A stretch of DNA of 64,000 bases from Prochlorococcus marinus str. MIT 1214. GTDB taxonomy: Bacteria > Cyanobacteriota > Cyanobacteriia > PCC-6307 > Cyanobiaceae. The position numbers were made by a program, and so were the translations under genes. The notes beneath the pieces are model-generated. The model was not told where the DNA came from. It was given only the letters and a program-made list of their open reading frames with translations, and did not search any database. Positions 34,940 to 63,395 of the stretch are shown piece by piece. Each line of letters begins with the position of its first letter. The stretch's first letter is position 1. The DNA is taken from NCBI RefSeq assembly GCF_027359355.1, contig NZ_CP114777.1, forward strand, positions 620,001 through 684,000, in the 5' to 3' direction.

Positions 34940-35013
34940 GATTTAAGAATTTTGGCGTAATACGGTGAGCACACCTTACAGGCAGCTCAATTCAAAAACT
35001 ACTATTAGTAATA

Positions 35014-35117: not shown

Positions 35118-35312
35118 ATGAAATCTGCTTTACAACTTGAACTACAAGATCTTCATGGACTTCCTTTCATAGCAACAATAATTTGGTTTGTGCTACTTGG
35201 AGTTTGTCTTTTAGCAGTGGTTTTTTATTTTTTTCAAAAGAATTACAGGCAAAAAGCAAAAGTTGATGGCGAACTCCCTCCTGAAAAGAAATCACGACCA
35301 AAAGGATTTTAA
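35118..35312 (+). CDS. Small membrane protein within the pcb array, 64 aa
   Basis: ATG-started ORF opposite in strand to the surrounding pcb genes. A polar N-terminus (SALQLELQDLHGLPF) precedes one helix (IATIIWFVLLGVCLLAVVFYFF) and a basic tail (NYRQKAKVDGELPPEKKSRPKGF). The charge pattern predicts a cytoplasmic C-terminus. It has the size and shape of a photosystem accessory peptide but matches none I know. Confidence 0.65.
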   Translation: MKSALQLELQDLHGLPFIATIIWFVLLGVCLLAVVFYFFQKNYRQKAKVDGELPPEKKSRPKGF

Positions 35313-35427
35313 ATGACTAAGAAAATTTTGTTTTTCAAAGTTAGTTCTCAAATTAATGTATTATCCTGAAACACGGGTTTGGCATAGTGGCCACCTGGGT
35401 TAACAATAAAAACAATTTTTTTACTCA

Positions 35428-35634
35428 ATGATTGATTTTTCTCACCTTCTTGATTTTGCCACTCAACTTCCACACCCATCAGATATTGGTTTAATCAAAC
35501 CATCCGGTGGATTTAATATAGCCGCAGCTCTTTGTGGTCTTGGAGCAGTATTTGGAGCATCTCAATTCTTCTATTATTCTGATGATTCAAAAAGGATCGA
35601 TCCTTGGGCTAAGCCTGAAAACTATAAAAACTAA
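35428..35634 (+). CDS. Small protein within the pcb array, 68 aa
   Basis: ATG-started ORF. The N-terminus is MIDFSHLLDFATQLPHPSD, the middle segment is hydrophobic and Gly/Ala-rich (FNIAAALCGLGAVFGASQFFYY), and the tail is polar (DDSKRIDPWAKPENYKN). It is probably a single-span thylakoid protein. A terminator follows 33 bases after the stop. It shares strand with the preceding small gene 115 bases upstream, so the two could be cotranscribed. Function unknown. Confidence 0.65.
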   Translation: MIDFSHLLDFATQLPHPSDIGLIKPSGGFNIAAALCGLGAVFGASQFFYYSDDSKRIDPWAKPENYKN

Positions 35635-35667
35635 AGGAATTTAAAATCTTTTAATTTTTTTCAAATA

Positions 35668-35703
35668 AAAAAAGAGCCTCGTCTAATGACGAGGCTCTTT
35701 TTT
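35668..35703. terminator. Bidirectional terminator
   Basis: Long stem AAAAAAGAGCCTCGTC, loop TAAT, and complement, with T-runs on both strands. It serves the small plus-strand gene and pcb copy 4. Confidence 0.93.
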
Positions 35704-35727
35704 ATTTGGAATCTTAAAAACCAATTA

Positions 35728-36816
35728 TCAATCAGAAAGAGTAACCCTAGCGTTATCAAGATTACTAATTGAATCAGTAACCTTCTTGAAATCAAAGCCT
35801 AAAGCACGTATTGCATGCCAAAGGTGACCTTGAATGAAGAAAAAACCAAGGTAGTAGTGAACATTTGTTAGCCAAGCTCTTGAAGTATGGCCACTAACAA
35901 CACCAGTCATATCAGCAGTATCAATCCAATAAGGAGATATACCAAATTTAAGAGCTAATGTTTCTCCATACCAGGCTTCGGGATAAACAGTTGTATTTGT
36001 TGCACACCAGAAAGCTGCAATAATCGCCATCCAACCAATACCAGCAAGAGACCATGAAAGTACAGCTTCAGCAGAAAGAATATTCTTTCCTTTGAATTCG
36101 GTGTACTCGCCTACTTGCTTAGTAGCGATATGAAATGCTCCACCTGTTATCTCTACAAATGCTAAAAATGCATGGCCACCCATTACATCCTCAAGACTAT
36201 CGATAGCCAAGAAATCAAACTGATGATTCCAAATGTTGGTCAAATTTAAGTTGTACTCGACTTGTCGAACTGCTCCTAAGGCAGGATCATAAATACCATG
36301 AATTCGAGCCCACTCAACAAACCAAATACAGGCAACGCCAAAGAAAATCAAATGGTGACCCAGGATAAAAGTCTGATTATCTGGATTATCCCATTCAAGC
36401 TTGTATCTTGCTGCCTGACGGTGCTCAGGGCGATCATCAGCAAACAAACCTGAACTATTTTGGGTATCTTCGCTAAAGATCAAAGAATGCAATAGGCCTG
36501 CACCCGCATATACCATTGAACAAATCAGATGGAATACGCCGATAAAAGCAATTGATGTGCCATCGAATACTGTTCCAGTTGGGTCAAATCCAATGCCAAT
36601 AGAAGCAAGATGTGGGATACTCACCATTCCCTGGTGTCCCATTGGAATATCTGGGTTGTATCTAGCGAGCTCCCAAAGTGTGTTGGCACCAGCTGCAAAA
36701 CAAATCAATCCTGTATGAGCAACATGCGAGCCAATAAATCGGCTTGACTTATTTGTTACAACAGAATTACCAACCCACCACCCGTAAGTGACGTCTGGGT
36801 TTCCGTAGGACTGCAT
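35728..36816 (-). CDS. pcb: Pcb chlorophyll a/b-binding light-harvesting protein, copy 4 (divergent)
   Basis: Antenna protein of 362 residues. The helices and ligand segments are conserved, but it departs from the other copies in two places. The second helix region reads HQGMVSIPHLASIGIGFDPTGTVFDG, and the stromal/lumenal loop has an insertion (SEDTQNSSGLFADDRPEHRQ). A short deletion is seen near the last loop (TADMTGVVSGHTSRAW). It is the most divergent copy in the array and may serve a different photosystem or condition; in other strains some pcb genes are iron-stress-induced and PSI-associated. Confidence 0.96.
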   Translation of the reverse strand: MQSYGNPDVTYGWWVGNSVVTNKSSRFIGSHVAHTGLICFAAGANTLWELARYNPDIPMGHQGMVSIPHLASIGIGFDPTGTVFDGTSIAFIGVFHLICSMVYAGAGLLHSLIFSEDTQNSSGLFADDRPEHRQAARYKLEWDNPDNQTFILGHHLIFFGVACIWFVEWARIHGIYDPALGAVRQVEYNLNLTNIWNHQFDFLAIDSLEDVMGGHAFLAFVEITGGAFHIATKQVGEYTEFKGKNILSAEAVLSWSLAGIGWMAIIAAFWCATNTTVYPEAWYGETLALKFGISPYWIDTADMTGVVSGHTSRAWLTNVHYYLGFFFIQGHLWHAIRALGFDFKKVTDSISNLDNARVTLSD

Positions 36817-36887
36817 AATTTAGGAAATTGAAGTCGAAATTCGACCTACCTTACATTTAGTGCAATAAATTTGCTTGAAATCGTAAA

Positions 36888-36894
36888 AGGTCTT
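36888..36894 (-). promoter_or_regulatory. Shared upstream element of pcb copy 4
   Basis: AAGACCT (minus strand) 72-78 bases before the ATG. The stretch between it and the start (AAGTCGAAATT near the ATG) is also similar to copy 1. Confidence 0.5.
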
Positions 36895-37023
36895 CAATTT
36901 AATGCACAAAACTAATTAATAAAATAACTGTGATTGTTCATTGATTTTCCCCACAAAAGCAGTGACAGATGGAAACTGAGAATCCTCGATTAACATCAGT
37001 CAATTTTTTTTATTACATCAAAA

Positions 37024-37057
37024 AAAAAGCCCCGCAAAAAAAAATACGGGGCTTTTT
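37024..37057 (-). terminator. Terminator of pcb copy 5
   Basis: Eleven-base-pair stem AAAAAGCCCCG / CGGGGCTTTTT around an A-rich loop, 26 bases after the copy 5 stop codon. Confidence 0.92.
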
Positions 37058-37082
37058 ATTAAATATTCAATAATTAAATCAA

Positions 37083-38147
37083 CTAGCCATTAAGAGTAAC
37101 TTTTGCGGTATCTAAGCTCGCAACAGCATTTGTAACTCTTCTAAAGTCAAAGCCTAATGCACGAATTGCATGCCATAAATGACCTTGTAAAAAGAAAAAT
37201 CCAAAATAATAATGGACATTGGTTAATGCAGCTCTTGTGGTGTGACCTGCAAATGCAGTGCTATCACTTAGATCTGCGGTATCAATCCAGTAGGGAGAAA
37301 TACCAAATTTCAAAGCCAGAGGTTCTCCATACCAAGCCTCGGGATAAACAGTTGTATTTGTTGCGCACCAGAAAGCTGCGACAATAGCCATCCAACCAAT
37401 ACCGGCCAAAGAGAAAGAAAGTACCGCTTCAGCAGAAAGAATATTCTTTCCTTTGAATTCGGTGTATTCGCCTACTTGCTTAGTGGCGATATGAAATGCT
37501 CCACCTGCTATCTCTACAAATGCTAAAAATGCATGCCCACCAAGAACGTCTTCAAGATTATCAATAGCCAAGAAATCAAATTGATGATTCCAAATATTGG
37601 TCAGATTAAGGTTGTATTCAACTTGTCTAACAGCTCCTATTGCAGGGTCATAAATTCCGTGAATTCTGGCCCATTCAACAAATGCTATGCAAGCGACACC
37701 AAAGAAAATCAAATGGTGACCAAGAATGAATGTCAAGTTATCCGGATTGTCCCATTCAAGCTTAAATTTTTCAGTTGTAGGTCCTGGTCCATCAGCTAAA
37801 TCACCATCAAAAAGAAGAGAGTGAGAAAGAGCTCCTCCTGCATATACAAGCGAAGCAATAATATGCACAATTGCTACAGACGCAACATTCGCCCCAGTCC
37901 AGACACCTGCATCATCAAATCCAATCCCAATAGATGCAAGATGAGCAAGAAAAATAGAGCTTTGATGACCCATAGCGATAGAAGGATCAAACCTGGCCAA
38001 CTCCCAAAGAGTGCTAGCTCCCGCAGCAAATGATATTAAGCCGGTGTGACCTGCATGAGCTGCAATAAACTTTCCGGCGCGGTTAGTAACCCTTGAATTA
38101 CCAGCCCACCAACCATAGGTGACATCTGGATTTCCATAGGTCTGCAT
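37083..38147 (-). CDS. pcb: Pcb chlorophyll a/b-binding light-harvesting protein, copy 5
   Basis: Antenna protein of 354 residues, start MQTYGNPDVTYGWW. It shares the loop VEYNLNLTNIWNHQFDFLAID and most of its C-terminal half with copies 3 and 4. Its fourth-helix segment reads FILGHHLIFFGVACIAFVEW, where the other copies have IWFVEW. The GPGPTTEKFKLEW loop is closest to copy 1. The mosaic of similarities suggests gene conversion among the copies. First gene of the array in transcription order. Confidence 0.96.
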   Translation of the reverse strand: MQTYGNPDVTYGWWAGNSRVTNRAGKFIAAHAGHTGLISFAAGASTLWELARFDPSIAMGHQSSIFLAHLASIGIGFDDAGVWTGANVASVAIVHIIASLVYAGGALSHSLLFDGDLADGPGPTTEKFKLEWDNPDNLTFILGHHLIFFGVACIAFVEWARIHGIYDPAIGAVRQVEYNLNLTNIWNHQFDFLAIDNLEDVLGGHAFLAFVEIAGGAFHIATKQVGEYTEFKGKNILSAEAVLSFSLAGIGWMAIVAAFWCATNTTVYPEAWYGEPLALKFGISPYWIDTADLSDSTAFAGHTTRAALTNVHYYFGFFFLQGHLWHAIRALGFDFRRVTNAVASLDTAKVTLNG

Positions 38148-47618: not shown

Positions 47619-50600
47619 TCAAAACAATCCCGTTACTTCAGAAAACAGAGCCTGATTTTCTACCGATTCAGCAAAACCTAAGAGTAATTCACCTCTATTT
47701 TCCAGACCACTATCTAATTGCTCAACCCAGTAATCATAACCAGCTTGGTCTGCCTCTCGACCTAGGATATTTTTATATAAAGTATTCACATAGGTTCCTG
47801 TATCAACATTCTCTCCATAAGTTGATTTGAATTCATCAGAAGCCAAAAAGGAGTCTGCCACTTGGCGATTACTATTTTCTCCAGAGGCATTTTTTTCAAT
47901 CCAATACTCAAGTCCGCCTGCATCAGGGAATCTTGCAAAAGCTGCGTTATAAACTCTAAACATTTGTCCAGTTGCGTCATCTTTTGATTTAACTTGATCA
48001 AATGTCTCTTGTATGTCTCTAATACCACTAAAAGATTTATCGTCAAATTCTAATTTCGGAACACCAGTAATATCATCAAATCCATCATCTGTTTTAACTT
48101 CGATAGTTCCATCATCCCTTTTATAAAATTTAAAATCTTTACTCTTACCTGTATATGTTTTAACGACATCTAATTTAGAGACGTCTACCTTTTGATCAGC
48201 AAATTGAATGTACTCAATATTCTTCAAGGTATCATTTCCATCATTCAGTCCTTCTCTTTGATCTTTAATTGAAATAGTATCTTTTGTTCTATCAAAATGA
48301 TAATCCTCAAAATTTCCAGCATAAAAAGCGACATCTTTTCCTTCTCCTCCATCAATGAAATCTGAGCCCAAACCACCAAATAATTTATCTGAAGTTTCTC
48401 CGCCTTCCAGTCTGTCATCACCATCATCTTTACTCTTAACCAATGAAGCCCAATGACTTATCGAATCACTACTCTCCGTAGACGTAGGATCCCTTAATTC
48501 TTTAATATCCATCCAAGGATAAGCAACTTCACCAATCGGTTTTTTATCGAGATCTAAAGCAGTTGGATCAAGTTCTTCTTCCGCCAGCTCCACAGCGGTC
48601 GCTGCTTCTTTAATTGGATCCTTAGTTGCACCCCAATATCCAGCGATCTTGTTAGCTTCATTATCTAGTGACGTATCAAAAAAGCTGGCATCTGTAACCC
48701 AAGCGCCACTGGTGGACCGATAGCCACCTGCCAATTTAATTTCGTTTGCCGTAATACCCTCTGGAATTACAGGTTTAATTTCTGCTTCTGGCACTTTCCA
48801 TCCTTCTGTCTGAAAAGATTCTGCTTTCACCCATTGGCCAAAGGGATCCCAAAAACCTCCATCGATTTTGATATCCTTTGCGGGTGGTGGAGCCCATGCA
48901 ACGGTTTGCGCATCAGCGCTTCCTTCTCCGAAATGTGCTATTGAGGAAACCCATGTGTTATCGACATCAAAATAACCACCGTTTCTTTTGATTACATCTT
49001 TCTCAGGAACAATCCCTGTGTTATTTAAAAAATCCTTTGCGGTAACCCACTTTCCATTGGGATTCCTAAAACCACCATCCTTTTTAATCAATTCATCTGG
49101 AGGGACAGTCCATCCTGCAGATAATGGATCTTTAAAGTAGTCGTCTTCTTCAACAAAAGTTCCATCGGCTTTTGTAAAGCCTCCTGTCTTGGCGATTACA
49201 TCTGCTTCTGGTGGAGTCCAGACAGTTGATATAGCAGGTTGATCACCACTTGTTCTTTTATTGAAGAAGGATTCCGCAGACATCCATGAACCATCAGGTC
49301 CTCTGAGTCCTCCTTCCCAACGAATAATATCGTCATCTGGAAGCACCCAATTCTTAAATGCTGCTGCTGCATCTGGAGCCATGTTTGCAGCTTGTTCTGG
49401 AGTTAAAGCTGCGAATGATTCTGGATCCAATTCCTTTAATTGATTTCCCCTAAATCCCGCCATAGCTTCTGGATCAAGCGCGGCAACATGCGTTGGCATA
49501 AATCCTTGCATTGCTGCAGAATCAAAAGCAGCTAAATGATCTTTTCTAAAACCAGCAACTGCAGTAGGAGCAAACGCCGAAATATATTTATCATCAAAAC
49601 TAGCAACTGCCATTGGGTCAAAAGCTGCAACATGTTCCATACCCAGAGTTGTCATATAGCCGTAATCAATCGCAGCAAAATGATCAGAATTAAATCCTGC
49701 CATCGCTGATGGATCAAAGGCAGCAAATTGATCTTTATCTAAACCTGCTATTGCTTTTGCTTCTAAGGCCGCCACATGATCAGCATTAAATCCTGCGATC
49801 GCTTCAGTATCAAAAGCGGCGATATGTCTGTCATCAAAACCAGCAACTGCCATTGGGTCAAAAGCTGCAACATGCTTACTTTTAAAGCCAGCAATTGCAG
49901 TAGGATCAAATGCTGCAAAATGATGTTCACTTAATCCACCTATCGCAAGTGGGTCAAAATTTTCTATTTGATCACTTCCAAAGCCAGTCATTGCCTGAGG
50001 ATCAAATGCTGCGAAATGGTTTCTATTTAAGCCTTGAATTTCTTCATATTTAAGATTGGCTATATCTGATACTTGAAAATCATTTACATCAATACCATTA
50101 ACAGTTGAGGTAGGTGGAGAATATACATATCCTCCATTGCCATCATCGGCCCAATTTGGTGGGATGACGACATTTCCATCAGCGCCTCTAGACCACCCTG
50201 TTACTTGAGCCTCAGTCGCTAAGGTTCCAGCGAGAACAATATCTGATTCTGGAATCAAAGCACTCGGAACAGAATTAGCCAATTCATCTGGACCTAGATA
50301 TCTATAATTGCCTTCTAAATCCACTTCCCATTCTGGTGGAGCATATGTAAAGCCCCCTAGCCCATCCCATTTCCAATCTGCCGGAACTTCGATATTTCCA
50401 TTTATATCTCTAGTAAAACTTGCTATGACATGCTCAGGGGCCTTCGCTCCAATTGCTGGCCTAGCCATTCCCTGACCATCATCTCCTTCTGAGTTTGGTG
50501 GATTGTAATACTCCCCTGATAAAGGATCGAATCCACCACCATCTGCAACCCCAGTGCCAGTTAAAGGATCCCAAGCAAGTTGATTTAAAGATCGTAAAGT

Positions 50601-51449
50601 TTCATCTCTTCTCCTTTTAGCTTCTTCCGCTTCAATTGCTTCGCCACCTCGATAAGGGCCAGGGCCACCAACATCTATTACAGATCCAAAAGAAGGTGGA
50701 GAGTATACATATCCACCTTGACCATCAGCAGCCCAATCAGCTGGAGGCATTAAGGATCCGTCTGCGCCTCTTTGCCATCCGTCAATTTGATCTTGGCTGG
50801 CTTGAGTTCCATCAGCTATAGCTCCTTGCCCCTCTCCTTCAAAACCTTCTGGGGGTGAGTAAACATATCCACCTTGACCATCAACAGCCCAATCAGCTGG
50901 AGGCATTAAGGATCCGTCTGCGCCTCTTTGCCATCCGTCAATTTGATCTTGGCTAGCTTGAGTTCCATCAGCGAAAGAGGGTTCTGGTGGGAAATATTCT
51001 CCTCTTGCTCTTGCTCTTTCTTCTGCCCTTCTCCCCATTTCTTCTGCTCTAGCTCTACCTTCCGGGGTGTCTGAGTAATCTTCAGGAGCCATTCCTGCCT
51101 CTGCTGCTGCCGCCTCAAAAGCATCTCTTTCAGCTATATCTTCTGCACTTGGACCAGGTGGCTCTTCTGCACCTCGCCCTGGAGGTATGTAACCAGGTGA
51201 ACCAGATCCAAAATCTCCTGGTGGAGGTGGAGCAAACTCTCCTGGTGGAGGTGGAGCAAACTCTCCTGGTGGAGGTGGAGCAAACTCTCCTGGTGGTGGT
51301 GGACCTTGTGGTGGTGGACCTTGTGGTGGTGGAATAAATTCTGGTGGTGGATCGAAATTTCCTTGTGGTGGTGGACCTTGTGGTGGTGGACCTTGTGGTG
51401 GTGGAATAAATGCTGGTGGTGGATCGAAATTTCCTGGAGTGCCAGTCAT
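47619..51449 (-). CDS. Giant multi-repeat RTX/DUF4214 protein, 1276 aa
   Basis: No signal peptide; probably exported by type I secretion. Order from the N-terminus: Pro-rich tandem repeats (PPPQG, EFAPPPPG); a Glu/Ala/Arg-rich helical stretch; several approximately 40-residue units ending DGQGGYVYSPP; fourteen contiguous 16-residue units of the type HVAAFDPMAVAGFDDR (49347-50018); six GGF...G-W-V...F units; an RTX-like calcium-binding segment (DDRLEGGETSDKLFGGLGSD) near residue 1025; and two DUF4214-like units at the C-terminus (FARFPDAGGLEYW, ILGREADQAGYDYW). The composition is richer in Pro/Gly/Ala and GC than its neighbours. Probably a surface or secreted protein. Role unknown. Confidence 0.88.
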   Translation of the reverse strand: MTGTPGNFDPPPAFIPPPQGPPPQGPPPQGNFDPPPEFIPPPQGPPPQGPPPPGEFAPPPPGEFAPPPPGEFAPPPPGDFGSGSPGYIPPGRGAEEPPGPSAEDIAERDAFEAAAAEAGMAPEDYSDTPEGRARAEEMGRRAEERARARGEYFPPEPSFADGTQASQDQIDGWQRGADGSLMPPADWAVDGQGGYVYSPPEGFEGEGQGAIADGTQASQDQIDGWQRGADGSLMPPADWAADGQGGYVYSPPSFGSVIDVGGPGPYRGGEAIEAEEAKRRRDETLRSLNQLAWDPLTGTGVADGGGFDPLSGEYYNPPNSEGDDGQGMARPAIGAKAPEHVIASFTRDINGNIEVPADWKWDGLGGFTYAPPEWEVDLEGNYRYLGPDELANSVPSALIPESDIVLAGTLATEAQVTGWSRGADGNVVIPPNWADDGNGGYVYSPPTSTVNGIDVNDFQVSDIANLKYEEIQGLNRNHFAAFDPQAMTGFGSDQIENFDPLAIGGLSEHHFAAFDPTAIAGFKSKHVAAFDPMAVAGFDDRHIAAFDTEAIAGFNADHVAALEAKAIAGLDKDQFAAFDPSAMAGFNSDHFAAIDYGYMTTLGMEHVAAFDPMAVASFDDKYISAFAPTAVAGFRKDHLAAFDSAAMQGFMPTHVAALDPEAMAGFRGNQLKELDPESFAALTPEQAANMAPDAAAAFKNWVLPDDDIIRWEGGLRGPDGSWMSAESFFNKRTSGDQPAISTVWTPPEADVIAKTGGFTKADGTFVEEDDYFKDPLSAGWTVPPDELIKKDGGFRNPNGKWVTAKDFLNNTGIVPEKDVIKRNGGYFDVDNTWVSSIAHFGEGSADAQTVAWAPPPAKDIKIDGGFWDPFGQWVKAESFQTEGWKVPEAEIKPVIPEGITANEIKLAGGYRSTSGAWVTDASFFDTSLDNEANKIAGYWGATKDPIKEAATAVELAEEELDPTALDLDKKPIGEVAYPWMDIKELRDPTSTESSDSISHWASLVKSKDDGDDRLEGGETSDKLFGGLGSDFIDGGEGKDVAFYAGNFEDYHFDRTKDTISIKDQREGLNDGNDTLKNIEYIQFADQKVDVSKLDVVKTYTGKSKDFKFYKRDDGTIEVKTDDGFDDITGVPKLEFDDKSFSGIRDIQETFDQVKSKDDATGQMFRVYNAAFARFPDAGGLEYWIEKNASGENSNRQVADSFLASDEFKSTYGENVDTGTYVNTLYKNILGREADQAGYDYWVEQLDSGLENRGELLLGFAESVENQALFSEVTGLF
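49347..50018 (-). repeat. Fourteen tandem 16-residue (48-bp) repeats
   Basis: Contiguous units with consensus (H/Q)xAAFDPxAxAGFxxx, without gaps, within the giant protein gene. DNA identity between units is moderate, so the array is older than the 110-bp duplication upstream. Confidence 0.88.
50707..50972 (-). repeat. Near-identical 110-bp duplication in the giant gene
   Basis: Copies at 50707-50816 and 50863-50972 differ at only two bases over 110. They encode the DGTQASQDQIDGWQRGADG...GGYVYSPP unit. Two more diverged units lie downstream in the gene. Confidence 0.9.
51215..51286 (-). repeat. Three exact 24-bp repeats encoding EFAPPPPG
   Basis: Perfect tandem copies at 51215-51238, 51239-51262 and 51263-51286 near the 5' end of the giant gene. 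They are followed by other Pro-rich repeats; slippage-prone. Confidence 0.9.
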
Positions 51450-53135: not shown

Positions 53136-55157
53136 CTATTTTAAAGTAGACATCTCTACTTTGATCAAATCAGATACTCTTTCCATAACTTCATTCCAGT
53201 TATGTCTTTTCTTTTGTCTGAATAATCTCATGGATGGATACCAAAATGTCGTTTCTTCTTCTAGACCCCACGTCCAAAAGGGTATATCTCTTAAAAGTAA
53301 CCAAACTTTTTTTCCCATTCCTCCCGCTAAATGAGCAACAGAAGTATCAGAAGTAATGATTAAGTCACAATTTTCAATTATTGCAGCAGTTTCCATAAAA
53401 TCCCAAATGGAATTAATTACTTCTTGAGATTCAACGAAATTATTTTTAAACTCGCAATTCTCTAACTGTTCTGATCCAAATCCCTTTTGCAACGACAAGA
53501 ATTTGACACTGTTATTTTTACTGAGTAAAGAGAAAGTATTTAGCGGGAGAGAACGACCTTTGAGAGAATTCTTTTCGACATTTGGATTACCTTGCCAATT
53601 AATACCAACAATGGGTCTTTTTTCTTTAGATAGGTTGCTTTTCCACTTATTAACAAGTTCATCAGTTGAGAAAATGTATGGATTATTAATTATTGGATTT
53701 TCCGGTCTGATTTTTAGATGTTTTGCTAAAGATAATAAAGGTATCCATTTTCCCTGGGAAACTGTTATGGCTTGATCTGTAGTTAATGGATTGGGATCAA
53801 TAGCTGATGATTTGATTAAAGAATGTAATTTTTGCTGTGCGCAAAAAGAAATCTCTAAACCTTTTCGTCTGAGATATGGGATATAGCGCATATATTGAAG
53901 CGTATCTCCTAACCCTTGTTCACTAACAACTAAAAGTTTTTCTCCTTTTTGAAATTCTGTATTATCTTTTCTATTGATTTTCGGCTTGCAATGAGGACGA
54001 ATTGATTTCTTTGTTTTAAATCTAAATTCATAGTTTTCTAGACCAGATTGATAATTGCCTTTCAAAAGTTCAATCAATGAAAGATTAAAACACGCCTCCG
54101 CATAATTTGGTTTTAAGTTAATGGCTTTTCTTAGCAATATTTCTCCTTCTTGTGATTTACCTAAATCGGCTGAAACCTTTCCAAGATTATTAATAGCCTC
54201 TTCGAAATCATTTCTCAGGTCAATTGCTTTGCGGATTGATATTTCTGCTTCTTTTAATTTCCCTTGATCACTCAAAATGTTTCCCAAATTGTTATGTGCT
54301 TCCGCAAGTGCAGGATTAAGTTCAATTGCTTTCCTAGTAATTATTTCTGCTTCTTTTAATTTTCCTTGCTCATTCAAAATATTTCCCAAATTGCTATGTG
54401 CTTCCGCAAGTGCAGGATTAAGTTCAATCGCTTTCCTAGTTGATATTTCTGCTTCTTTTAATTTTCCTTGCTCATTTAAAATATTTCCCAAGTTACTATA
54501 TGCTTTTGCATAATCACGTTTAAGTTCAATTGCCTTCCTAGTACTTATTTCTGATTCTTTTAATTTTCCTTGCTCATTCAAGATGGATCCCAGATTATTA
54601 TGTGCTTCCGCAAGTACAGGATTAAGTTCAATCGCTCTCCTTGTTGATCTTTCTGCTTCTTTTAATTTTCCTTGCTCATTCAAAATATTTCCCAAGTTAC
54701 TATATGCTTTTGCATAATCACGTTTAAGTTCTATCGCTCTCCTTGTTGATCTTTCTGCTTCTTTTAATTTTCCTTGCTCATTCAAGATGGATCCCAGATT
54801 ATTATGTGCTTCCGCAAGTACAGGATTAAGTTCAATTGCTTTCCTAGTAATTATTTCTGCTTCTTTTAATTTTCCTTGCTCATTCAAAATGGTTCCATAA
54901 TTAGAAAAAACTGTGGAATCCTTAAAACCCTGATTAATAAAATACTGATAATATTTTGCCGCCTCAGGAACATTGCCTTGTGAATGGAATTTAAATGCTT
55001 GATTACTGATTTGTTCTTCAGAAAATTGTTTAGTAAGATTAGTAATAATAGTAATATTTTCTTTGATCTCCACGAAAGAGAATGGAACGGAAAACACTTT
55101 TACTCCAGACACTTTTATGTATCCTGGCTCGTTTTGACAGATAGGATCATCACCCAT
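53136..55157 (-). CDS. TPR protein with GT9-like glycosyltransferase domain
   Basis: A 673-residue protein. An N-terminal cap of about 60 residues (VKVFSVPFSFVEIKENITIITNL) is followed by about nine 34-residue TPRs of the type GKLKEAEISTRKAIELNPALAEAHSNLGNILNEQ. A C-terminal domain then runs from about residue 395: KLLVVSEQGLGDTLQYMRYIPYLRRKG, PIVGINWQGNP, and ITSDTSVAHLAGGMGKKVWLLL, the pattern of ADP-heptose-type (GT9-like) transferases. TPR units 2-6 alternate between two sequence types, showing a recent 68-residue duplication. Acceptor and donor unknown. Confidence 0.87.
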   Translation of the reverse strand: MGDDPICQNEPGYIKVSGVKVFSVPFSFVEIKENITIITNLTKQFSEEQISNQAFKFHSQGNVPEAAKYYQYFINQGFKDSTVFSNYGTILNEQGKLKEAEIITRKAIELNPVLAEAHNNLGSILNEQGKLKEAERSTRRAIELKRDYAKAYSNLGNILNEQGKLKEAERSTRRAIELNPVLAEAHNNLGSILNEQGKLKESEISTRKAIELKRDYAKAYSNLGNILNEQGKLKEAEISTRKAIELNPALAEAHSNLGNILNEQGKLKEAEIITRKAIELNPALAEAHNNLGNILSDQGKLKEAEISIRKAIDLRNDFEEAINNLGKVSADLGKSQEGEILLRKAINLKPNYAEACFNLSLIELLKGNYQSGLENYEFRFKTKKSIRPHCKPKINRKDNTEFQKGEKLLVVSEQGLGDTLQYMRYIPYLRRKGLEISFCAQQKLHSLIKSSAIDPNPLTTDQAITVSQGKWIPLLSLAKHLKIRPENPIINNPYIFSTDELVNKWKSNLSKEKRPIVGINWQGNPNVEKNSLKGRSLPLNTFSLLSKNNSVKFLSLQKGFGSEQLENCEFKNNFVESQEVINSIWDFMETAAIIENCDLIITSDTSVAHLAGGMGKKVWLLLRDIPFWTWGLEEETTFWYPSMRLFRQKKRHNWNEVMERVSDLIKVEMSTLK
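54277..54900 (-). repeat. TPR-encoding tandem repeat with 204-bp higher-order unit
   Basis: 102-bp units encoding one TPR each. Units carrying NPVLAEAHNNLGS alternate with units carrying KRDYAKAYSNLGN, so pairs of units (204 bp) were duplicated together. Nearly identical at DNA level. Confidence 0.85.
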
Positions 55158-55911
55158 TTATTTATAGGAATTATAAAATCATATTAATAAGCATATCTAT
55201 TATATAACTAAAAGCGCTTAAGATATGAACAAAAGTCAGAATAAAGTTCGAGTAAGATCAAATCAAAGTAGTGAAAAATTATTCTATGAATAGCCTTCTA
55301 AAGGTTTAAGAGAGACTTAATCACAGAAATCAAGATAAATTGATCACCAGTAAGAATTAAAGTCAGGTCCAAATCAGAATATAAAAGCAAGGTCTAAACA
55401 GTTGCAGAATTGACAATTAAACAAGGATAAGAAACATAGTCTTGATTAACTCGATACATATTTGAACCCTGTTCAAAAAAACTATTCAATCTCCAATCTT
55501 GAGTGTATGTAAGAAAAAGATTATAAAAGAAAAATTTATCTAATTATAAAAAAGAAGAAATTTCTCTAACTAATTAAAGTCAAACTTAATTAAATCAAAT
55601 TCTTTAAAAGTATATTTACTATTAAATATACTTTTATTTTCTTTCTTAGAACACATGAAATTATTTATCTCTATAATTTTCTCAACAGAGTAATCATATT
55701 GTTATAAATCCATACATAAGATGAACAACTAGAAAAGATTTAAAACGACAATTGGATCGATTTGATAATACTATAGTAATTGGATTCATTAAAGTGCTAA
55801 TAATAAATTTTTGTTTTTTAATATATTATTAAAAGTAAATAGATTAAATTAAAAACAGAAAAAATTAGATTTTAGAAACCTAATAATAAAATCTTAAAAA
55901 TCAAATAGAAA
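55158..55911. other. Gene-poor region in the island
   Basis: 754 AT-rich bases between the TPR/GT9 gene and the oxidoreductase gene. A hairpin (AAAGTATATTT with its complement, near 55607-55638) is the only structure I see. No ORF of convincing composition, no tRNA. Confidence 0.5.
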
Positions 55912-56874
55912 TCAATTATTAGAGTAGCAATTATTTAAAAGTCTAGTAATCTCAACTCCCATGGACAAACTCCAATGCGTATTTAAACTTTTCTTTATGA
56001 AATTAGAAAATGATTCTAAAACCAGAACAAGAGGTTCTTTATTCTTTTTAATATCAATAGAAATACCTCCTTGAATTGGAAATTCTTTTTTATTCCAATT
56101 AGTATATAAGCACAAAGGATCATTACTTAAGTCATCAAAAACAAGCATTCCATATGCTCCTAAAACACCACATTTCCGGGTTTTTGGCATCATATTTCCT
56201 ATCAATGTTCTTGATTCAACCTGCTCACCAAAGGAACAATTTATTTCCCATATTGATTCATCCTGAGTTCTTCTTGAATTTTCTATGAGTTTCTTAGTAG
56301 ACATTTTAATTGGAGATTTTCCCATTAAACTTAGTAAAATTGATAACTCATGAGATCCCCAATCCCAGAGTACGGGTGCATCATCTCTATAGGGCCCAAA
56401 ATTACCAGCCTTTGTTAATAAGAATTTAATATCACCTATTAAATTTAATGATTCTTTTAATCCAATGAATTTGTAATTAAATAACTGAGTGAAGTCAACC
56501 ATCACTAAATTCTCATGACTTTTAGAGAGTTTATAAATAGTTCTAGCCTCATCAATATCAAGTGTAAGAGGCTTTTCTATGAGAATTGGAAGGCGAGCTT
56601 GTATTAAACGACTTGCAATTTCAAAATGAGTTTTTGGAGGTGTGCATATAACTACTCCATCTAATTCAGCGAAACTAATAAGATTCCGCCAGTCTGAGAA
56701 AATTTTACAATCACTTTGAATTATTTTTTTAGCTTCAGGATTTTTACTGGCTACACAAGTCAACTTTAAAAAGGGAATTTTACTGGTGGCCCTGACTATA
56801 TTCCTACCCCAACGACCTAATCCAATTAAACCTATTTTGCTAACATAATTATCTTTTATGATCTTATCTGTCAT
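55912..56874 (-). CDS. Gfo/Idh/MocA-family oxidoreductase
   Basis: A 320-residue NAD(P)-dependent sugar oxidoreductase-like protein. The Rossmann motif GLIGLGRWGRNIVRA starts near residue 14, and the catalytic lysine motif is EKPLTLDIDEA near residue 98. The C-terminal sheet domain follows. It is last in a three-gene cassette with a C-methyltransferase and a cupin epimerase-like protein, which suggests oxidation/reduction of a nucleotide sugar intermediate. The exact substrate is unknown. Confidence 0.9.
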   Translation of the reverse strand: MTDKIIKDNYVSKIGLIGLGRWGRNIVRATSKIPFLKLTCVASKNPEAKKIIQSDCKIFSDWRNLISFAELDGVVICTPPKTHFEIASRLIQARLPILIEKPLTLDIDEARTIYKLSKSHENLVMVDFTQLFNYKFIGLKESLNLIGDIKFLLTKAGNFGPYRDDAPVLWDWGSHELSILLSLMGKSPIKMSTKKLIENSRRTQDESIWEINCSFGEQVESRTLIGNMMPKTRKCGVLGAYGMLVFDDLSNDPLCLYTNWNKKEFPIQGGISIDIKKNKEPLVLVLESFSNFIKKSLNTHWSLSMGVEITRLLNNCYSNN

Positions 56875-56905
56875 GAAAACTTCAAAAGATATTCAATAGT
56901 ATGTT

Positions 56906-58147
56906 TTAAATTACTTCTATCTTAGGCAAGGGAATAATAAATTTGCCCCCACTATTGTGAAAGTCCATATTATTCTTAATTATTGAAGAAGAGAAATTCC
57001 AAGCTAAAATAAGAATATAATCTGGCTTATTTTCTTGTAAAAATTGTTTAGAAACTATAGGTATATGCATTCCTGGTGTATATAAATTCTGCTTCCATTT
57101 GCTATCATCAACTATATAACTTAATATGTCTGAACCAATATCAAAGTGGTGCAATAAAGTTGTAGCCTTGGCTGGTGCTCCATAACCAACAATTGTCTTT
57201 CCCTTTGATTTCAATGTTCTAAGCAAAGAATTTAACTCTCTCGCCAAACTTTTAATCTTATCAGAAAAGTTTAAATAAGTTGTAAGATTGTCTAGGCCTA
57301 ATTCCTTTTCCTCTTTTATGAACTTAACAACAGAATCTGAAATATCAAATTGACCTCTTTTGAGTTGAGTAAAGATTCTAACCGAGCCTCCATGAGAGTC
57401 TACATGTTCTATATTGAAAATTTCAAAACCATTATTTTCGAAAAATCTATTAAAAGAAATAATTGAATGGTAATCTAAATGTTCATGATAAATAGTATCA
57501 AATAAACTATTCTTTATAACATCTAGCAGATATGAAACTTCAACAATAAAGATACCTTTTTTATCTTTAATCAAAGTTTTTATACCTTCTAAAAAAACTT
57601 TCGGATCATCAATATGGGCGAAAACATTATTTGCTGTTATAACTGATGCTGATCCAAACTGATAGAGAATTTTTCGTGCTAAATCTTTACTAAATAATTC
57701 AATCAAAGTAGGGATACCATTCTTTATTGCTTCATTAGCGATTTTCTCAGCAGGCTCTATTCCAATCACTTGATATCCATCATTTTTAAAAAATTTCATT
57801 AAAGTTCCATCATTAGAGCCAATATCGATTACTAATCCATTAGTAAAATAATTTTCTCTGATATATTCAAAGTAGTTTTGAAAATGCTTAATAAAGACAT
57901 TAGATGTCCCCGATACATAAAGATAGTTTTTATAGAGATAGACAGGATCAATAACATCAATTAATTGTAAATGCTTACATTCATTACAAAAATAGACATC
58001 TAATGGATATAAAGTTTGCATTTTATTCAACTCAGATTTTCTCACAAAGGAATTTGCTAGAGGTGTTTCTTTGAGCTTTATGGCCAATGTCAAATTATTA
58101 GAATTGCATTGCCTGCAATTTGATCTACGGTAATGTCGTTTTCTCAT
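56906..58147 (-). CDS. Nucleotide-sugar C-methyltransferase
   Basis: A 413-residue SAM-dependent methyltransferase of the type that adds a branch methyl to NDP-ketosugars. The N-terminal zinc-binding part has CRQCNSNNL and YFCNECKHLQLID. The SAM motif is VIDIGSNDGTLMKFF near residue 100. The C-terminal domain has VGYGAPAKATTLLHHF and YIVDDSKWKQNLYTPGMHIPI, characteristic of this class. It lies 6 bases after the cupin gene and 31 bases before the oxidoreductase gene: one operon. Confidence 0.9.
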   Translation of the reverse strand: MRKRHYRRSNCRQCNSNNLTLAIKLKETPLANSFVRKSELNKMQTLYPLDVYFCNECKHLQLIDVIDPVYLYKNYLYVSGTSNVFIKHFQNYFEYIRENYFTNGLVIDIGSNDGTLMKFFKNDGYQVIGIEPAEKIANEAIKNGIPTLIELFSKDLARKILYQFGSASVITANNVFAHIDDPKVFLEGIKTLIKDKKGIFIVEVSYLLDVIKNSLFDTIYHEHLDYHSIISFNRFFENNGFEIFNIEHVDSHGGSVRIFTQLKRGQFDISDSVVKFIKEEKELGLDNLTTYLNFSDKIKSLARELNSLLRTLKSKGKTIVGYGAPAKATTLLHHFDIGSDILSYIVDDSKWKQNLYTPGMHIPIVSKQFLQENKPDYILILAWNFSSSIIKNNMDFHNSGGKFIIPLPKIEVI

Positions 58148-58153
58148 TTAAGA

Positions 58154-58582
58154 CTATGGATTTATTGGAGATATTCTGCACACATCAGACTCATAAATCT
58201 CTTGAAGCCTTGAATTTCTGCTCCAAGTTAAGAACTGAGTTGCTTCAGTAAAAACCATTGCATGCTCAACCATAGGTGGAGTAAAAAACATTTGCTTCTC
58301 TTTGATTATTATCTCTCTAGGCAATTCTTTATTACCGTGAGGTCGATGATAATATTTAATTTCTCCTGAAAGCACATAACAATAATGCCAGTCTGTTTTA
58401 TGGTAATGATTTGCCCTAATTGATCCTGTATTAGAGGATATTAAAACCGAACTCTTCATATCTATATCCAGCAAAGGCTGTATGGACCCCCTTTGGTCCG
58501 AAAAAGGCGGTGGTAGATCAACAATTACATTAGAAGGCCATGCCTTTTTTTCATCCTCAGAGATAGGTATTATTTTATCCAT
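58154..58582 (-). CDS. Cupin sugar-epimerase-like protein
   Basis: A 142-residue single-domain cupin: DQRGSIQPLL, SIRANHYHKTDWHYCYVLSGEIKYYHRPHG, MFFTPPMVEHAMVFTEAT. The ANHYHK histidines and a later His fit the cupin metal or base positions. It resembles dTDP-4-dehydrorhamnose 3,5-epimerase-like proteins used in deoxysugar paths. First gene of the three-gene sugar cassette. Confidence 0.85.
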   Translation of the reverse strand: MDKIIPISEDEKKAWPSNVIVDLPPPFSDQRGSIQPLLDIDMKSSVLISSNTGSIRANHYHKTDWHYCYVLSGEIKYYHRPHGNKELPREIIIKEKQMFFTPPMVEHAMVFTEATQFLTWSRNSRLQEIYESDVCRISPINP

Positions 58583-58723
58583 AGTAATTAATTCTAACTA
58601 TTTAGTTAGTTCAATTTTAGTACAATAATTAATTTTCAAGTGTCATCTTGTTTAGATTTATCACCATAGTATGATACATGTATAAGAATCTACTTTATAG
58701 AAAAAATAGATTTACTCAAAATA

Positions 58724-60796
58724 TTAATTCGTTATAGAAGTAAATGGCTTCCAATTATTTTCAAGATATTCTCCTTCCCGTGCTTTTTCTACAGCGGCGG
58801 TAAAAAAATTATAATATTCTTTAAAAATTGTATTATCATTAAATAGATACTTATGTGCCCTTTCTTTTAAATCTTTTTTTGTGTTATGCAAAAACAAACT
58901 ATTAGTTGCATATTTTTTACATAAATATATATAATCTTCAGGTGTACAAGCTATTGGAGGTTTTTTTACTTGCATCTGTTTATAACCTGAAGCAACTAAG
59001 CTACCTCTTTGGCTAAATGGATAGGTAATAAATGGTACACCAAAAGCCATAGATTCATAATAGGTATTACCACTACCAAAATAAAATGGATCTAACATTA
59101 TTTGACAATTTTTGGTTATATTTATAAAATCGTCTTGGGACATTCTTTTAAGAAATATTGATTTCTCAAGTAATATATTATTATGCTTTTTCCATCTATT
59201 TTTTAAATCTTCTGTTCTATTTTCATTTCTATCTTTAATAAGGATTAAATATGCATTATTTATCTCTTGCAAGATAGAAGCTAATACCTTATCAAAATTA
59301 GGATGCAACTTAAATATTGATTGAGTAAGTCCAATGATAAATTTATTATCTAAATCTAATCTGTTATTATAAGTTAGTTTAGATTCATTTATCTTTGGAA
59401 TTGGATAATTGAAAGGCAATCTACTGAACCTTACTAAGCGCTCTGTATAGCTAGATGATGGATGATGAGGAGTAATATCATTAGTAATAAAATAATCAAT
59501 GTTTTTGATACCTGATGTATTTGGATGTCCTAGACTAGTAACCTGAACCAATGCCAATCTAGATAATGCAAGAATATAGGTATAATTAGACATCCCTATA
59601 TCTGGATAAAATAAAATATCTAGTTTGTCAGAAAATATTAATTCGCATGCTTTGTATGTTGAATTTGGTAGCTCTATTACTTGTTTGAATAAATTCCTGA
59701 TAAGTTCTACATCCGAATTACTTTTATTTATTGGCGGAACATAAACTATAATTTCAAGATCAGTCTTCAGTAATAGGTCTAATAGAACATTAATATACAA
59801 TTTGCCTATAGTATGATTTTCTCTAAGAAATTCTGAGCAAATTCCTAACCTCAGGTTATTTTTGTTTATCGAGTTAACAAGATATTCTTTTCTAGAAAAC
59901 CCATCAAAAACAACTCCTTTGACATTGGATATTACTTTACTGAGTTCCTCAAGAATAATCTTATCATCTAATTTATTGTGGTAAGCTAGATAAAATAAAT
60001 TTGTATCAAAAACATTTTCGTTATTATAATAAATATTTTTTTTATTCTTTATTTTTTGCAATTGATTCTTGTATTCGATACGCTCAGTTTCTATCTGTGC
60101 AACATCATTCATTATTGGAGATAATCTCAACTTTGAAATCACATTAAAATTTAAATTATTAGGTTCTTTTTCTAATGCAAACAAATAGTGTTTAATAGCA
60201 TCTTTCTCTTTACCATGATTGCTAATTAGGTTTCCAAGATTATAATGAGCATATACAAAATCAGGCTTAAGCGTAATAGCTTTGCGTAATGATAATTCTG
60301 CTTCTTCTATCTTTCCAAGATCACATAAAATTTGTCCCAGATTATAATGTGCTTCTGCAAATCCAAAATCAAGTTCAATTGTCTTACGTGTAAATAATTC
60401 TGCTTCATTTAAATTACCTAGTTCTCTCAATACATTTGCAAGATTTAAATTAGCATCTCTACAAACAGAGTTAAGCTCAATTGCTTTGCGAAATGATAGT
60501 TCTGCTTCTTCTAATTTCCCAAGATCTTTTAAAACATTTCCCAAGTTGTAATGTGCATCCGGGAAATCATTTTTAACCTCAATTGCTTTGCGATATAATG
60601 AAACTGCCTCATTCTTCTTGCCAATTCCTGTTAATATGACACCATAATTAGAAAAAACTATATGATCTTCGAAGCCTAAATTTATGAAAGATTGATAATA
60701 TTTAATTGCTTCTAAAATTTTTCCTTGTGAATGAAACTTAAAAGCTTGATTCATAATTTGATCTTTAGTTATTTTATCTCCTTTTTTAATTGTCAT
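58724..60796 (-). CDS. TPR protein with SPINDLY/OGT-like (GT41) domain
   Basis: A 690-residue protein. About six TPRs (residues 15-225) begin with QAFKFHSQGKILEAIKYYQSFINLGFEDHIVFSNYG, closely related to the first repeat of the TPR/GT9 protein. The C-terminal part has VQVTSLGHPNTSGIKNIDYFITN, FIIGLTQSIFKLHPNF, and MLDPFYFGSGNTYYESMAFGVPFITYP, which are the landmarks of bacterial SPINDLY-like transferases. It is likely a cytoplasmic sugar transferase acting on protein or glycan. Acceptor unknown. Confidence 0.87.
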   Translation of the reverse strand: MTIKKGDKITKDQIMNQAFKFHSQGKILEAIKYYQSFINLGFEDHIVFSNYGVILTGIGKKNEAVSLYRKAIEVKNDFPDAHYNLGNVLKDLGKLEEAELSFRKAIELNSVCRDANLNLANVLRELGNLNEAELFTRKTIELDFGFAEAHYNLGQILCDLGKIEEAELSLRKAITLKPDFVYAHYNLGNLISNHGKEKDAIKHYLFALEKEPNNLNFNVISKLRLSPIMNDVAQIETERIEYKNQLQKIKNKKNIYYNNENVFDTNLFYLAYHNKLDDKIILEELSKVISNVKGVVFDGFSRKEYLVNSINKNNLRLGICSEFLRENHTIGKLYINVLLDLLLKTDLEIIVYVPPINKSNSDVELIRNLFKQVIELPNSTYKACELIFSDKLDILFYPDIGMSNYTYILALSRLALVQVTSLGHPNTSGIKNIDYFITNDITPHHPSSSYTERLVRFSRLPFNYPIPKINESKLTYNNRLDLDNKFIIGLTQSIFKLHPNFDKVLASILQEINNAYLILIKDRNENRTEDLKNRWKKHNNILLEKSIFLKRMSQDDFINITKNCQIMLDPFYFGSGNTYYESMAFGVPFITYPFSQRGSLVASGYKQMQVKKPPIACTPEDYIYLCKKYATNSLFLHNTKKDLKERAHKYLFNDNTIFKEYYNFFTAAVEKAREGEYLENNWKPFTSITN

Positions 60797-61188
60797 AGCT
60801 CTTTTATTTTTTCAAACGTAAGTTGCACTCGTCAGACCTTAAGGTTTAAGAAATAGACTTTTCTCCTGAAAAGTCAGACTAAATCTTATAGAAAAGCTAA
60901 AAATGCTTTGTACTATCATTGTACTATAGATCGACTAAAAACCCTTTACAAACTTGACATGACAACCAATTACAATCAAATTCTCGCTGATAATAATGCA
61001 ATAAAAGATAAATCATTTGTGAGACATCATTAGATCGCACTAAGAAATAAAAATAAATATTACAGATACATTTCATATTTTTTTTGCCTTAGAGCAAAAA
61101 GAAGTCAGCTAAATACTTAATATTTGTTGCCTAAGCAACGAAGATCAGCTAGAAAAAGTATCAACAACTACTATCTTGGCTTCGACCC
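60797..61188. other. Intergenic region in the island
   Basis: 392 bases between the TPR/GT41 gene and a short plus-strand ORF. Only weak hairpins are seen (GACTTTTCTCCTGAAAAGTC near 60857 and GTTGCCTAAGCAAC near 61124). No gene supported. Confidence 0.5.
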
Positions 61189-61326
61189 ATGATCAATGAA
61201 AACCTAGTAGAAATTCTACTCGCTGCAATTCTTGTCTCAAATACCTACGACAAGGATCAGGCTGTAATAAAATGGGGCGGTATTGTAATAGCCGTTGCTG
61301 GTGTTGCTTCAGCTTTATTTGGTTAA
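61189..61326 (+). CDS. Small membrane protein, 45 aa
   Basis: Too short for standard lists. ATG start; the translation begins MINENLVEILLAAILVSN and ends IVIAVAGVASALFG, giving two short hydrophobic segments around a polar turn (TYDKDQAVIKW). A clear terminator follows 57 bases after the stop, supporting expression. No family recognised. Confidence 0.6.
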   Translation: MINENLVEILLAAILVSNTYDKDQAVIKWGGIVIAVAGVASALFG

Positions 61327-61382
61327 ACATTAAAGTCCCTTGAAATCGATTTAACTCAGTTAAATCAAAAATTCATGATCTT

Positions 61383-61409
61383 AGCTGCAAATTATTTGCA
61401 GCTTTTTTT
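61383..61409 (+). terminator. Rho-independent terminator
   Basis: Stem AGCTGCAAA / TTTGCAGCT with a three-base loop and a T-run, downstream of the 45-residue ORF. Confidence 0.88.
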
Positions 61410-61538
61410 ATAAATTAATTAAAAAACTCATAAAATCCTGTTATACAAATCGATCACAAGCAAAAATCACAGTTAGACATAGGTTGTACCAATAGAGCGG
61501 AGTAATAAAAGTTATATTTATCCTTATTTGCCAATGAA

Positions 61539-63395
61539 TTAAGAAGACAAGTCTCGATATTTATCATGTTTAGCAAGGATTTCCAAAGCAGGATGGAGCA
61601 TCTCCTTATAATTTTTCCATCCACCTACAGATTTTGGGTTGATTGGTGTACGAACTTGAACCGTACTTGCTGTAGAAATTGCGCGAGGATTAAGATGCGG
61701 TGATAGATATGACTCGTCCCATTCCCAACCTAACCAAGAAATCAAAGATTTAATTTCTATATCAGAATTAGTAACCAATGAATCATAATTCAAGTCATAT
61801 ATTTTAGATCTAAATTTATTCTTATATTCTGTCATTACTTGTTCTTGATCTAAATAAACATTGGCACAATCAACTAAAGAGGAAGAAAACTCATTCCCAT
61901 TAGAAAAATTTGCACGATAAATTGAAAGTATATTATCTAAAGGATTTCTAAAACAATGAATGATCTTTGCATTATCAATTTGATTAGCGATAATACCTGC
62001 GTATTGATAATTATATAACATCTTATCAGTTATGATATTAAATTTTCTTATAGAAATATTTACTTTTTTCAAATACAAATTAGAAAGATTTATGTTCTTA
62101 TTAATAGATTTAACCTTATTCCAATATAAAAATGCTTCCTCTAAAATATTTGTCTCACCTAAATCGAAAGCAGCACTATTAATACTTAGAATAGATTCTA
62201 ATAATGTAGAGCCTGATCTTGGCATTCCAACAATAAAAATACATTGAAAAGGATCTTTTCTTATTATTAGATTATTATTTTTTTTATAAGAGACTGTAAG
62301 TAATTGCTTTGATTTATTGAAATATATCTCTGGATTAAATGGTTTAATTTTAATTTTAATTTGATTCGCAATTTGAAGGCATTCGGCACTATCTATATAT
62401 TTTTTCTCCTTATGAAAGATATTTGATCTAGCAAAATAAATATCAATTGTCTCTTTTGGCTTCTTGTTATCTAAAATAACTTTAGAAAATAATTTATTTC
62501 GCCATTTAGTATTTATTCCTATGGGTAAAAGAGTAGATAAGGAAAAGTATGCTCCAGCCAAATCATTTTTAATTTCAAGAGCTTTCAGGTAAGCCAATTC
62601 GGATTTATTTAAATAGCCAAGATCCTTTTGAACATTACCCAAATTCGAATAAGCTTCTGCAAAATTAGGCATTAGTTTTATAGATTTTTGATAGAAAGAT
62701 TCTGCTTCCTTTAATTTTCTTAAGTCATGTAATGTATTCGCTAAATTATAATAAAAATCTGCCACATCAGGGGTAAGTTCTATTGCTTTAAGATGAGATG
62801 ATTCTGCTTCTTTTAATTGACCAAGCTCTCTGAGGATTATTCCTCTATTGGAATAGGCTTTCCCATCACATGGATTATATTGAATTGACTTCCTAATAAA
62901 AAATTCTGCATCGCTAAGTTTACCCAGCTCATATAATATAGTCGCTAAATTACAATAAGCTTCTGCGAAATCAATTTTCAAATTAATAGCTTTACGTAGA
63001 AATAGTTCTGCTTCTGTTAAGTTACCAATTTCTTTTAAAGTATTTGCAAGATTATAATAACCTCTTGCAAAATTTGGATTAAGCTCTATAGATTTACGTT
63101 GATATCTTTCTGCTTCTTTAATTTTGCCAAGAACTTTTAATATAATTCCATAGTTTGATAAAACAACTGAATTATTAAGTCCGAGAGCTAAATAACGTTC
63201 GTAGTGATTAGCTGCTTCTAAAATGTCACCATTTGAATGTGCTTTAAATGCTTTTGCGATTATTTCATCTTTAAACTTATTAGTTAAAATATTTATATTT
63301 CCATGAATTTCACTCAATAAAAATGGAACGGAATAAATATTTAAGTCATTCTTTTTCTCAATATTCCCATCATCTTGATCGAACTCTCTACTCAT
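61539..63395 (-). CDS. TPR protein with sulfotransferase domain
   Basis: A multi-TPR protein with a C-terminal PAPS-dependent sulfotransferase. The chosen ATG at 63395 gives MSREFDQDDGN; TTG (63440) and ATG (63431) also exist upstream. The N-terminal cap (LNIYSVPFLLSEIHGNINILTN) and first repeat (AFKAHSNGDILEAANHYERYL) resemble those of the TPR/GT9 protein. About eight TPRs follow. The 5'-phosphosulfate loop is GMPRSGSTLLESIL, and the 3'-phosphate site lies in CFRNPLDNILSIYRANF. Target could be a glycan or tyrosine; not determined. Confidence 0.9.
   Translation of the reverse strand: MSREFDQDDGNIEKKNDLNIYSVPFLLSEIHGNINILTNKFKDEIIAKAFKAHSNGDILEAANHYERYLALGLNNSVVLSNYGIILKVLGKIKEAERYQRKSIELNPNFARGYYNLANTLKEIGNLTEAELFLRKAINLKIDFAEAYCNLATILYELGKLSDAEFFIRKSIQYNPCDGKAYSNRGIILRELGQLKEAESSHLKAIELTPDVADFYYNLANTLHDLRKLKEAESFYQKSIKLMPNFAEAYSNLGNVQKDLGYLNKSELAYLKALEIKNDLAGAYFSLSTLLPIGINTKWRNKLFSKVILDNKKPKETIDIYFARSNIFHKEKKYIDSAECLQIANQIKIKIKPFNPEIYFNKSKQLLTVSYKKNNNLIIRKDPFQCIFIVGMPRSGSTLLESILSINSAAFDLGETNILEEAFLYWNKVKSINKNINLSNLYLKKVNISIRKFNIITDKMLYNYQYAGIIANQIDNAKIIHCFRNPLDNILSIYRANFSNGNEFSSSLVDCANVYLDQEQVMTEYKNKFRSKIYDLNYDSLVTNSDIEIKSLISWLGWEWDESYLSPHLNPRAISTASTVQVRTPINPKSVGGWKNYKEMLHPALEILAKHDKYRDLSS

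Follow-up and report, generated by a model that had tools for sequence, protein, structure and literature searches.

One type of TPR arm joined to at least twelve unrelated kinds of modifying end in Prochlorococcus

Three large genes on one strand of a Prochlorococcus chromosome begin alike and end differently. The question raised by this locus is whether they form a unit, working with the sugar genes between them on one common target, or belong to something larger. The genes lie in a window of 64,000 nucleotides (620001-684000 of a closed 1,934,849-bp genome), which we take to come from a Prochlorococcus of the LLI type. All three open reading frames are present, and the features, in whole-window coordinates, are as follows:

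53136..55157, minus strand: TPR-GT9 gene, 673 aa, with cap, 8 TPR units (in-house profile) and a GT9-fold end
55038..55103, minus strand: cap motif VKVFSVPFSFVEIKENITIITN of the GT9 gene (motif profile)
54105..54998, minus strand: TPR arm of the GT9 gene; human OGT is the nearest natural solved arm
53139..54104, minus strand: GT9-like catalytic end; the motifs EQ..GD and D..IT.D...A are kept within the class
55912..56874, minus strand: Gfo/Idh/MocA oxidoreductase of the sugar cassette (profile match)
56906..58147, minus strand: C-methyltransferase (Methyltransf_13/14) of the sugar cassette
58154..58582, minus strand: cupin-like protein of the sugar cassette
58724..60796, minus strand: TPR-GT41 gene, 690 aa, with the first hairpin and no VPF cap
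60155..60748, minus strand: TPR arm of the GT41 gene
58727..60154, minus strand: GT41/OGT-like end; nearest solved proteins are HMW1C/NGT, a bacterial TPR-OGT (5djs) and SPINDLY
61539..63395, minus strand: TPR-sulfotransferase gene from its ATG start; the TTG frame reaches 63440
63279..63341, minus strand: cap motif NIYSVPFLLSEIHGNINILTN of the sulfotransferase gene, within a predicted disordered tail
62562..63272, minus strand: TPR arm of the sulfotransferase gene; pLDDT mostly 82-97
61542..62561, minus strand: PAPS-dependent sulfotransferase end with motifs GMPRSGSTLLES and RNPLDNILSIYR

An earlier note on this DNA had described a common front end in the three genes, with a cap in two of them, and alignment confirms this. 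The first hairpin, AFK.HS.G...EA..Y, is found in all three, and the TPR arms are 37-53% identical in pairwise comparison (blastp 1e-49 to 1e-70). The cap, VPF..EI..NI.I.TN, is restricted to the GT9 and sulfotransferase genes; the GT41 gene lacks it, nor does any in-frame extension upstream provide one. This gene is one of a few members of the family described below in which such a tail is missing.

The three ends are mutually unrelated, as had been claimed. That of the sulfotransferase gene matches Sulfotransfer_3 (PF13469, 1.7e-24), and both PAPS-binding motifs of such ends are retained in all 20 members compared, as in PAPS sulfotransferases generally; similarity to the protein-tyrosine sulfotransferase TPST2 is very weak (0.014). 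The GT41 end matches Glyco_transf_41 (PF13844) at 7.4e-12, over the curated cut-off, and the solved enzyme HMW1C at 1e-10. The GT9 end falls below the curated cut-off of PF01075 (18.0 bits against 22, E 0.0019) and has no match by sequence in the PDB, and its fold was therefore predicted. The resulting model (pLDDT 77.7) matches 3tov (7e-7, TM 0.58), the E. coli heptosyltransferases (1psw, 1e-5, and weaker) and the protein heptosyltransferase TibC (4rap, 2.7e-4). Since the family cut-off is missed and the GT-B fold is matched, this end is best described as having a GT9-like fold, with no confirmed membership of GT9. It shares the predicted fold with the heptosyltransferases at only 9-15% identity and, unlike them, is fused to a TPR arm. 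An APS kinase gene is found in the genome, so PAPS can be made, and genes of the heptose pathway, judged by sequence, appear to be present at 763-826 kb; cofactor supply for these enzymes is plausible.

The arm resembles that of OGT. Among natural solved proteins, the human OGT TPR arm is the best match to the arm of the window GT9 gene (8e-75), and the OGT superhelix is also the best structural match to the modelled sulfotransferase protein (1.3e-14), in which the catalytic part is poorly modelled. An asparagine at position 6 of the TPR is kept in 94% of 580 units in the family. In OGT, an asparagine ladder grips the backbone of extended substrates (PMC5493779), and Asn6 aligns with OGT Asn356 if the 3pe3 chain consists of a 4-residue tag followed by residues 313-1031; Asn6 is weak evidence by itself, because it is also a general TPR consensus residue. 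The ligand-facing groove, taken as positions 2, 5, 9, 12 and 13 of the unit, is the most variable part of the arm, its mean entropy being 2.50 bits and that of the remaining exposed positions 1.50. It also has the highest dN/dS in the arm, 0.60 against 0.35 and 0.25. Positive selection was considered and set aside, as dN/dS is below 1 throughout; the groove is the fastest-evolving part, for which relaxed constraint could also account.

The cap behaves quite differently. In the sulfotransferase model, residues 1-38, which include it, are predicted to be disordered (pLDDT under 50), although the motif is under selection: its core positions have a dN/dS of 0.23, against 0.64 at the remaining ones. 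A 22-residue profile of the motif matches 35 places in the genome, the weakest of them (E 0.1) a 51-residue frame, and none of the 35 is a recognised carrier outside the TPR family; the sharing of the motif thus exceeds what chance would give. The idea that the cap is a tag shared with non-TPR partners was therefore dropped, there being no such protein in the genome. Two radical SAM proteins bear the motif on N-terminal repeats of a different build. A common docking partner for the constant cap is possible.

The front end reaches far beyond the window. A profile of it, followed by reading of the surrounding DNA, identified about 43 open reading frames in the genome, here called chassis genes, including the window GT41 gene; most consist of a cap or hairpin followed by TPRs, and two were recruited on TPR units alone. 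Together they occupy 78,030 nt, or 4.03% of the 1.93-Mb genome, mainly at 763-826, 1085-1097, 1220-1224 and 1377-1421 kb. In 38 of 42 (the window GT41 gene not counted), an end lies downstream of the last TPR. By blastp grouping, these ends form 12 unrelated classes: GT9-like (11 genes), sulfotransferase (5), GT41 (4, plus the window gene), three kinds of 2OG-Fe oxygenase (4, 2 and 1, two of these classes being weakly assigned at 0.03 and 5e-4), TylF methyltransferase (4), radical SAM/SPASM (2), SGNH-like (2, a weak assignment through DUF459 at 0.04), FkbM methyltransferase (1), a class I methyltransferase that has a long additional region (1) and a last class that matches no Pfam family. The other four genes are TPR-only. 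The earlier note's suggestion that catalytic ends are swapped on one TPR chassis thus holds on a scale well beyond what it claimed, in about 40 genes and at least 12 end classes.

Arms and ends are uncoupled, one type of arm having been fused repeatedly to unrelated ends. Four pairs of genes in this genome with differing end classes are 91-98% identical in DNA over 864-1066 nt, a stretch that begins near the gene start and breaks off close to where the TPR array ends. Among 141 genes from several strains, all five pairs with near-identical arms (at least 88%) differ in end class, and in 23 of 24 pairs with near-identical ends the arms do not match; as the baseline between arms in the family is itself about 70-84%, a non-match here is a pair no closer than is normal in the family. 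The genes at 1377360 and 1379997 are one near-identical pair with different ends. A tree of 108 arms requires 71 or more changes of end class (minimum 12, shuffled mean 77.2), a count that serves as a description and not a rate because the tree, built on 147 columns, is poorly resolved; three of its four starred forks join differing ends. Within the genome, the nearest N-terminus shares the end class in 8 of 41 cases, which is indistinguishable from shuffling (mean 4.7, P 0.13).

Chassis genes are also widespread in the genus. The front end occurs in 37 of 41 genomes of the genus-level group, where copy number runs from 0 to 44, and in at least 63 of 349 genomes of the wider order, where the matches listed from outside the genus are mostly one to three weaker copies. 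The named genomes with close relatives of the front end are Prochlorococcus without exception. A survey of other strains, as the earlier note had advised, gave 84 distinct complete chassis genes, 72 with an end and 12 without. The same 12 classes recur among them, together with three singleton ends, one PRMT-like (PRMT5_C, 4.5e-8) and another glycerophosphotransferase-like. Phage carriage was considered, and no chassis gene was found in the viral contigs searched.

Two chromosomal sites are hypervariable in their chassis content. Between guaA and pbp2, a site defined by its flanking proteins, seven strains have 17, 13, 6, 3, 2, 2 and 1 chassis genes; the mixture of ends differs by strain and every gene faces guaA. 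The window genes occupy the second site, between psbA and ychF. There, one strain (G004) lacks the sugar cassette and has chassis genes with GT9, sulfotransferase and methyltransferase ends; two others (G005 and G006) have a single TPR-only gene. Anchoring of such islands on tRNA genes was rejected, with no tRNA in the stretches examined near the window genes and near the 1377-1421 kb group. Some other chassis groups do adjoin tRNAs.

This variation bears directly on the idea of a single dedicated system, with one target recruited by all three arms and then glycosylated and sulfated with sugars from the cassette. The common front end and the adjacency of the genes had suggested it. However, the content of the psbA-ychF site shows that the three genes are not a co-inherited set, and they do not co-occur across strains, an outcome named beforehand as speaking against the proposal; nor do the other strains compared keep the Gfo/Idh/MocA gene next to their chassis genes. 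Unrelated TPR proteins are more distant from the window arms than these are from each other, but other chassis paralogs mostly are not. For the sulfotransferase gene, the nearest N-terminus is that of a GT9 gene lying about 0.72 Mb off (78% over 64 aa). Of six comparisons, one ranks the window mate second, and the other five rank it between 9 and 37 out of 38. In addition, the grooves differ between the arms, their variability pointing to several targets, and about 40 further members carry other chemistries. Both the common target and the dedicated system are thus regarded as very improbable.

The family might instead be largely the product of neutral or selfish duplication, in which repeats recombine and copies build up in islands, most of them with no separate function. 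The range of 0 to 44 copies in related genomes, the TPR-only members and a resolvase fragment that adjoins one copy would all fit. Against this, catalytic motifs of the ends are retained and reading frames are open, dN/dS is 0.25-0.60 in the arm with 0.23 at the core of the cap, and for a streamlined genome 4% is a steep cost. We consider such an origin improbable.

The window genes instead belong to a large family that is probably undergoing active recombination and made up of cytoplasmic enzymes that modify proteins. Proteins would be the favoured substrates because the arm is OGT-like, the nearest relatives of the GT41 end are protein glycosyltransferases and one strain has the PRMT-like end. 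Several observations do not sit easily with this: GT9, TylF, FkbM and SGNH-like ends are otherwise common on sugars, one chassis group lies among sugar-nucleotide genes, and Asn6 and variable groove positions are seen in TPR proteins generally.

The main rival to protein modification is that chassis enzymes decorate surface glycans, the ends acting on LPS, O-antigen or exopolysaccharide and the arm being merely a tether to a membrane complex via the cap. The 763-826 kb group has neighbours that read, by sequence, as heptose, sialate-like and rhamnose genes, the family includes sugar-type GT9, methyltransferase and SGNH-like ends, the window cassette is of sugar type, and sugar genes abound in the variable islands of Prochlorococcus (PMC5804319). 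However, no sugar genes were recognised in the surroundings of the largest group (1377-1421 kb), the GT41 and PRMT-like ends point to proteins, and a tether alone would need no groove more variable than the rest of the surface. Glycan decoration is therefore regarded as rather unlikely.

Under the protein-modification reading, the disordered N-terminal tail with its conserved motif would probably act as a docking or localisation tag, perhaps for a common partner. The groove of the OGT-like superhelix would probably hold extended polypeptides and choose the substrate through side-chain contacts that vary by copy, while the chemistry would be the work of the C-terminal modifying domain, of which there are at least 12 unrelated kinds. 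Arms and ends would be exchanged by recombination at the repetitive TPR DNA that paralogs share, and copies would pile up at fixed hypervariable sites, so that each strain would come to hold its own set of recognition-chemistry combinations. The benefit may be a varied stock of modified, perhaps surface or secreted, proteins against phage or grazers. This full combinatorial scheme, in which diversifying arms are re-paired with a dozen or more chemistries to place strain-specific marks on proteins behind a common N-terminal dock, is offered tentatively and with somewhat less than even confidence. The most obvious candidate targets in the neighbourhood are DUF4214 proteins, which adjoin chassis genes at two or three places. 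As a common target, DUF4214/RTX proteins were rejected, since their counts do not track chassis number in 17 near-complete genomes (Spearman -0.25, p 0.33).

Each pairing of TPRs with an enzyme is by itself a familiar bacterial architecture. Two features of the FlmG/OGT type are present in the chassis proteins, a transferase end placed behind an N-terminal TPR arm and the asparagine ladder. FlmG of Caulobacter crescentus, a precedent for the mechanism proposed here, is soluble and has a GT-B transferase end that modifies flagellins, and its TPR part alone is necessary and sufficient for flagellin binding (PMC7591256). The likeness is one of architecture: FlmG is a single gene with known targets, for which no cap motif, shuffling or other chemistries are described (PMC7591256). 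Among GT41 enzymes, OGT provides the nearest natural solved arm, and the window GT41 end aligns with HMW1C/NGT, a bacterial TPR-OGT and SPINDLY; in these enzymes, however, the arm goes with one type of catalysis, whereas the chassis arm goes with at least 12 kinds of end.

Polymorphic toxin families likewise combine a constant N-terminal part with interchangeable C-terminal activities in variable islands, and the chassis family resembles them. Its ends, in contrast, are biosynthetic modifying enzymes, and the chassis genes came with no recognised toxin, immunity gene or secretion signal. The apparent novelty lies in how many chemistries one type of arm carries, in the constant cap and in the evidence that exchange is still going on.

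TPR Pfams have been reported as enriched in low-light Prochlorococcus, with a proposed role in PSII or heterotrophy (PMC11357015). That report concerns the same genus and makes no mention of sulfotransferase or glycosyltransferase ends. A literature search, short on subscription journals, found nothing tying Prochlorococcus TPR proteins to sulfotransferases, and no report of chassis gene expression was found in one published proteomics study. The literature found has counted the family merely as TPR domains and linked it to photosystem II.

Although Prochlorococcus is the textbook case of genome streamlining, shuffled modifying enzymes take up as much as 4% of one of its genomes. If their substrates are proteins, the family would be a bacterial kit that separates the choice of target from the chemistry, with a simple rule on offer: the arm would predict the target and the end would predict the mark. 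Its natural arm-end chimeras would also be of use in engineering protein modification, and the family could account for strain-level variation that bears on resistance to phages and grazers.

Among the chassis genes, which join a shared TPR arm to one of several unrelated enzyme ends or to none, one in the genome containing the window (G000) carries a well conserved C-terminus of about 290 aa. It has no matches in Pfam or NCBIfam, is presumably an enzymatic domain, and has relatives in stretches L044, L068, L105 and L106. In Prochlorococcus AG-424-E20 (L049), a chassis arm bears a bacterial PRMT-like (arginine methyltransferase) end. Immediately after one TPR-only chassis gene of G000 come a serine recombinase (resolvase) fragment and a tRNA-Phe.

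G000 1379997-1381904 (end at L040:9997-10857), gene with the ~290-aa end
G000 1720863-1722251 (L043), TPR-only chassis gene
G000 1224950-1227940 (L039:9950-12940), DUF4214 protein adjoining chassis genes
G000 1373902-1375008 (L040:3902-5008), DUF4214 protein adjoining chassis genes
Window 47619-51449 (-), Pro-rich DUF4214/RTX protein, 1276 aa
Window 31164-38147, five consecutive Pcb-type (PSII/CP43-like) antenna genes
G000 683879-684496 (+; start, window 63879), TPR protein of a different type (205 aa), located just beyond the sulfotransferase gene
G000 804204-806258 and 812308-814827 (L035, L036), VPF-capped radical SAM/SPASM proteins

The 1276-aa protein combines "AFDP.A..GF...H.AAFDP" repeats with RTX and DUF4214 and is probably secreted; a protein 75% similar to it adjoins a psbA copy in another Prochlorococcus strain (G002). 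Overall DUF4214 protein counts do not track chassis number.

In both radical SAM/SPASM proteins the TPR region is built differently, which suggests that the N-terminal cap can be transferred separately from the arm.
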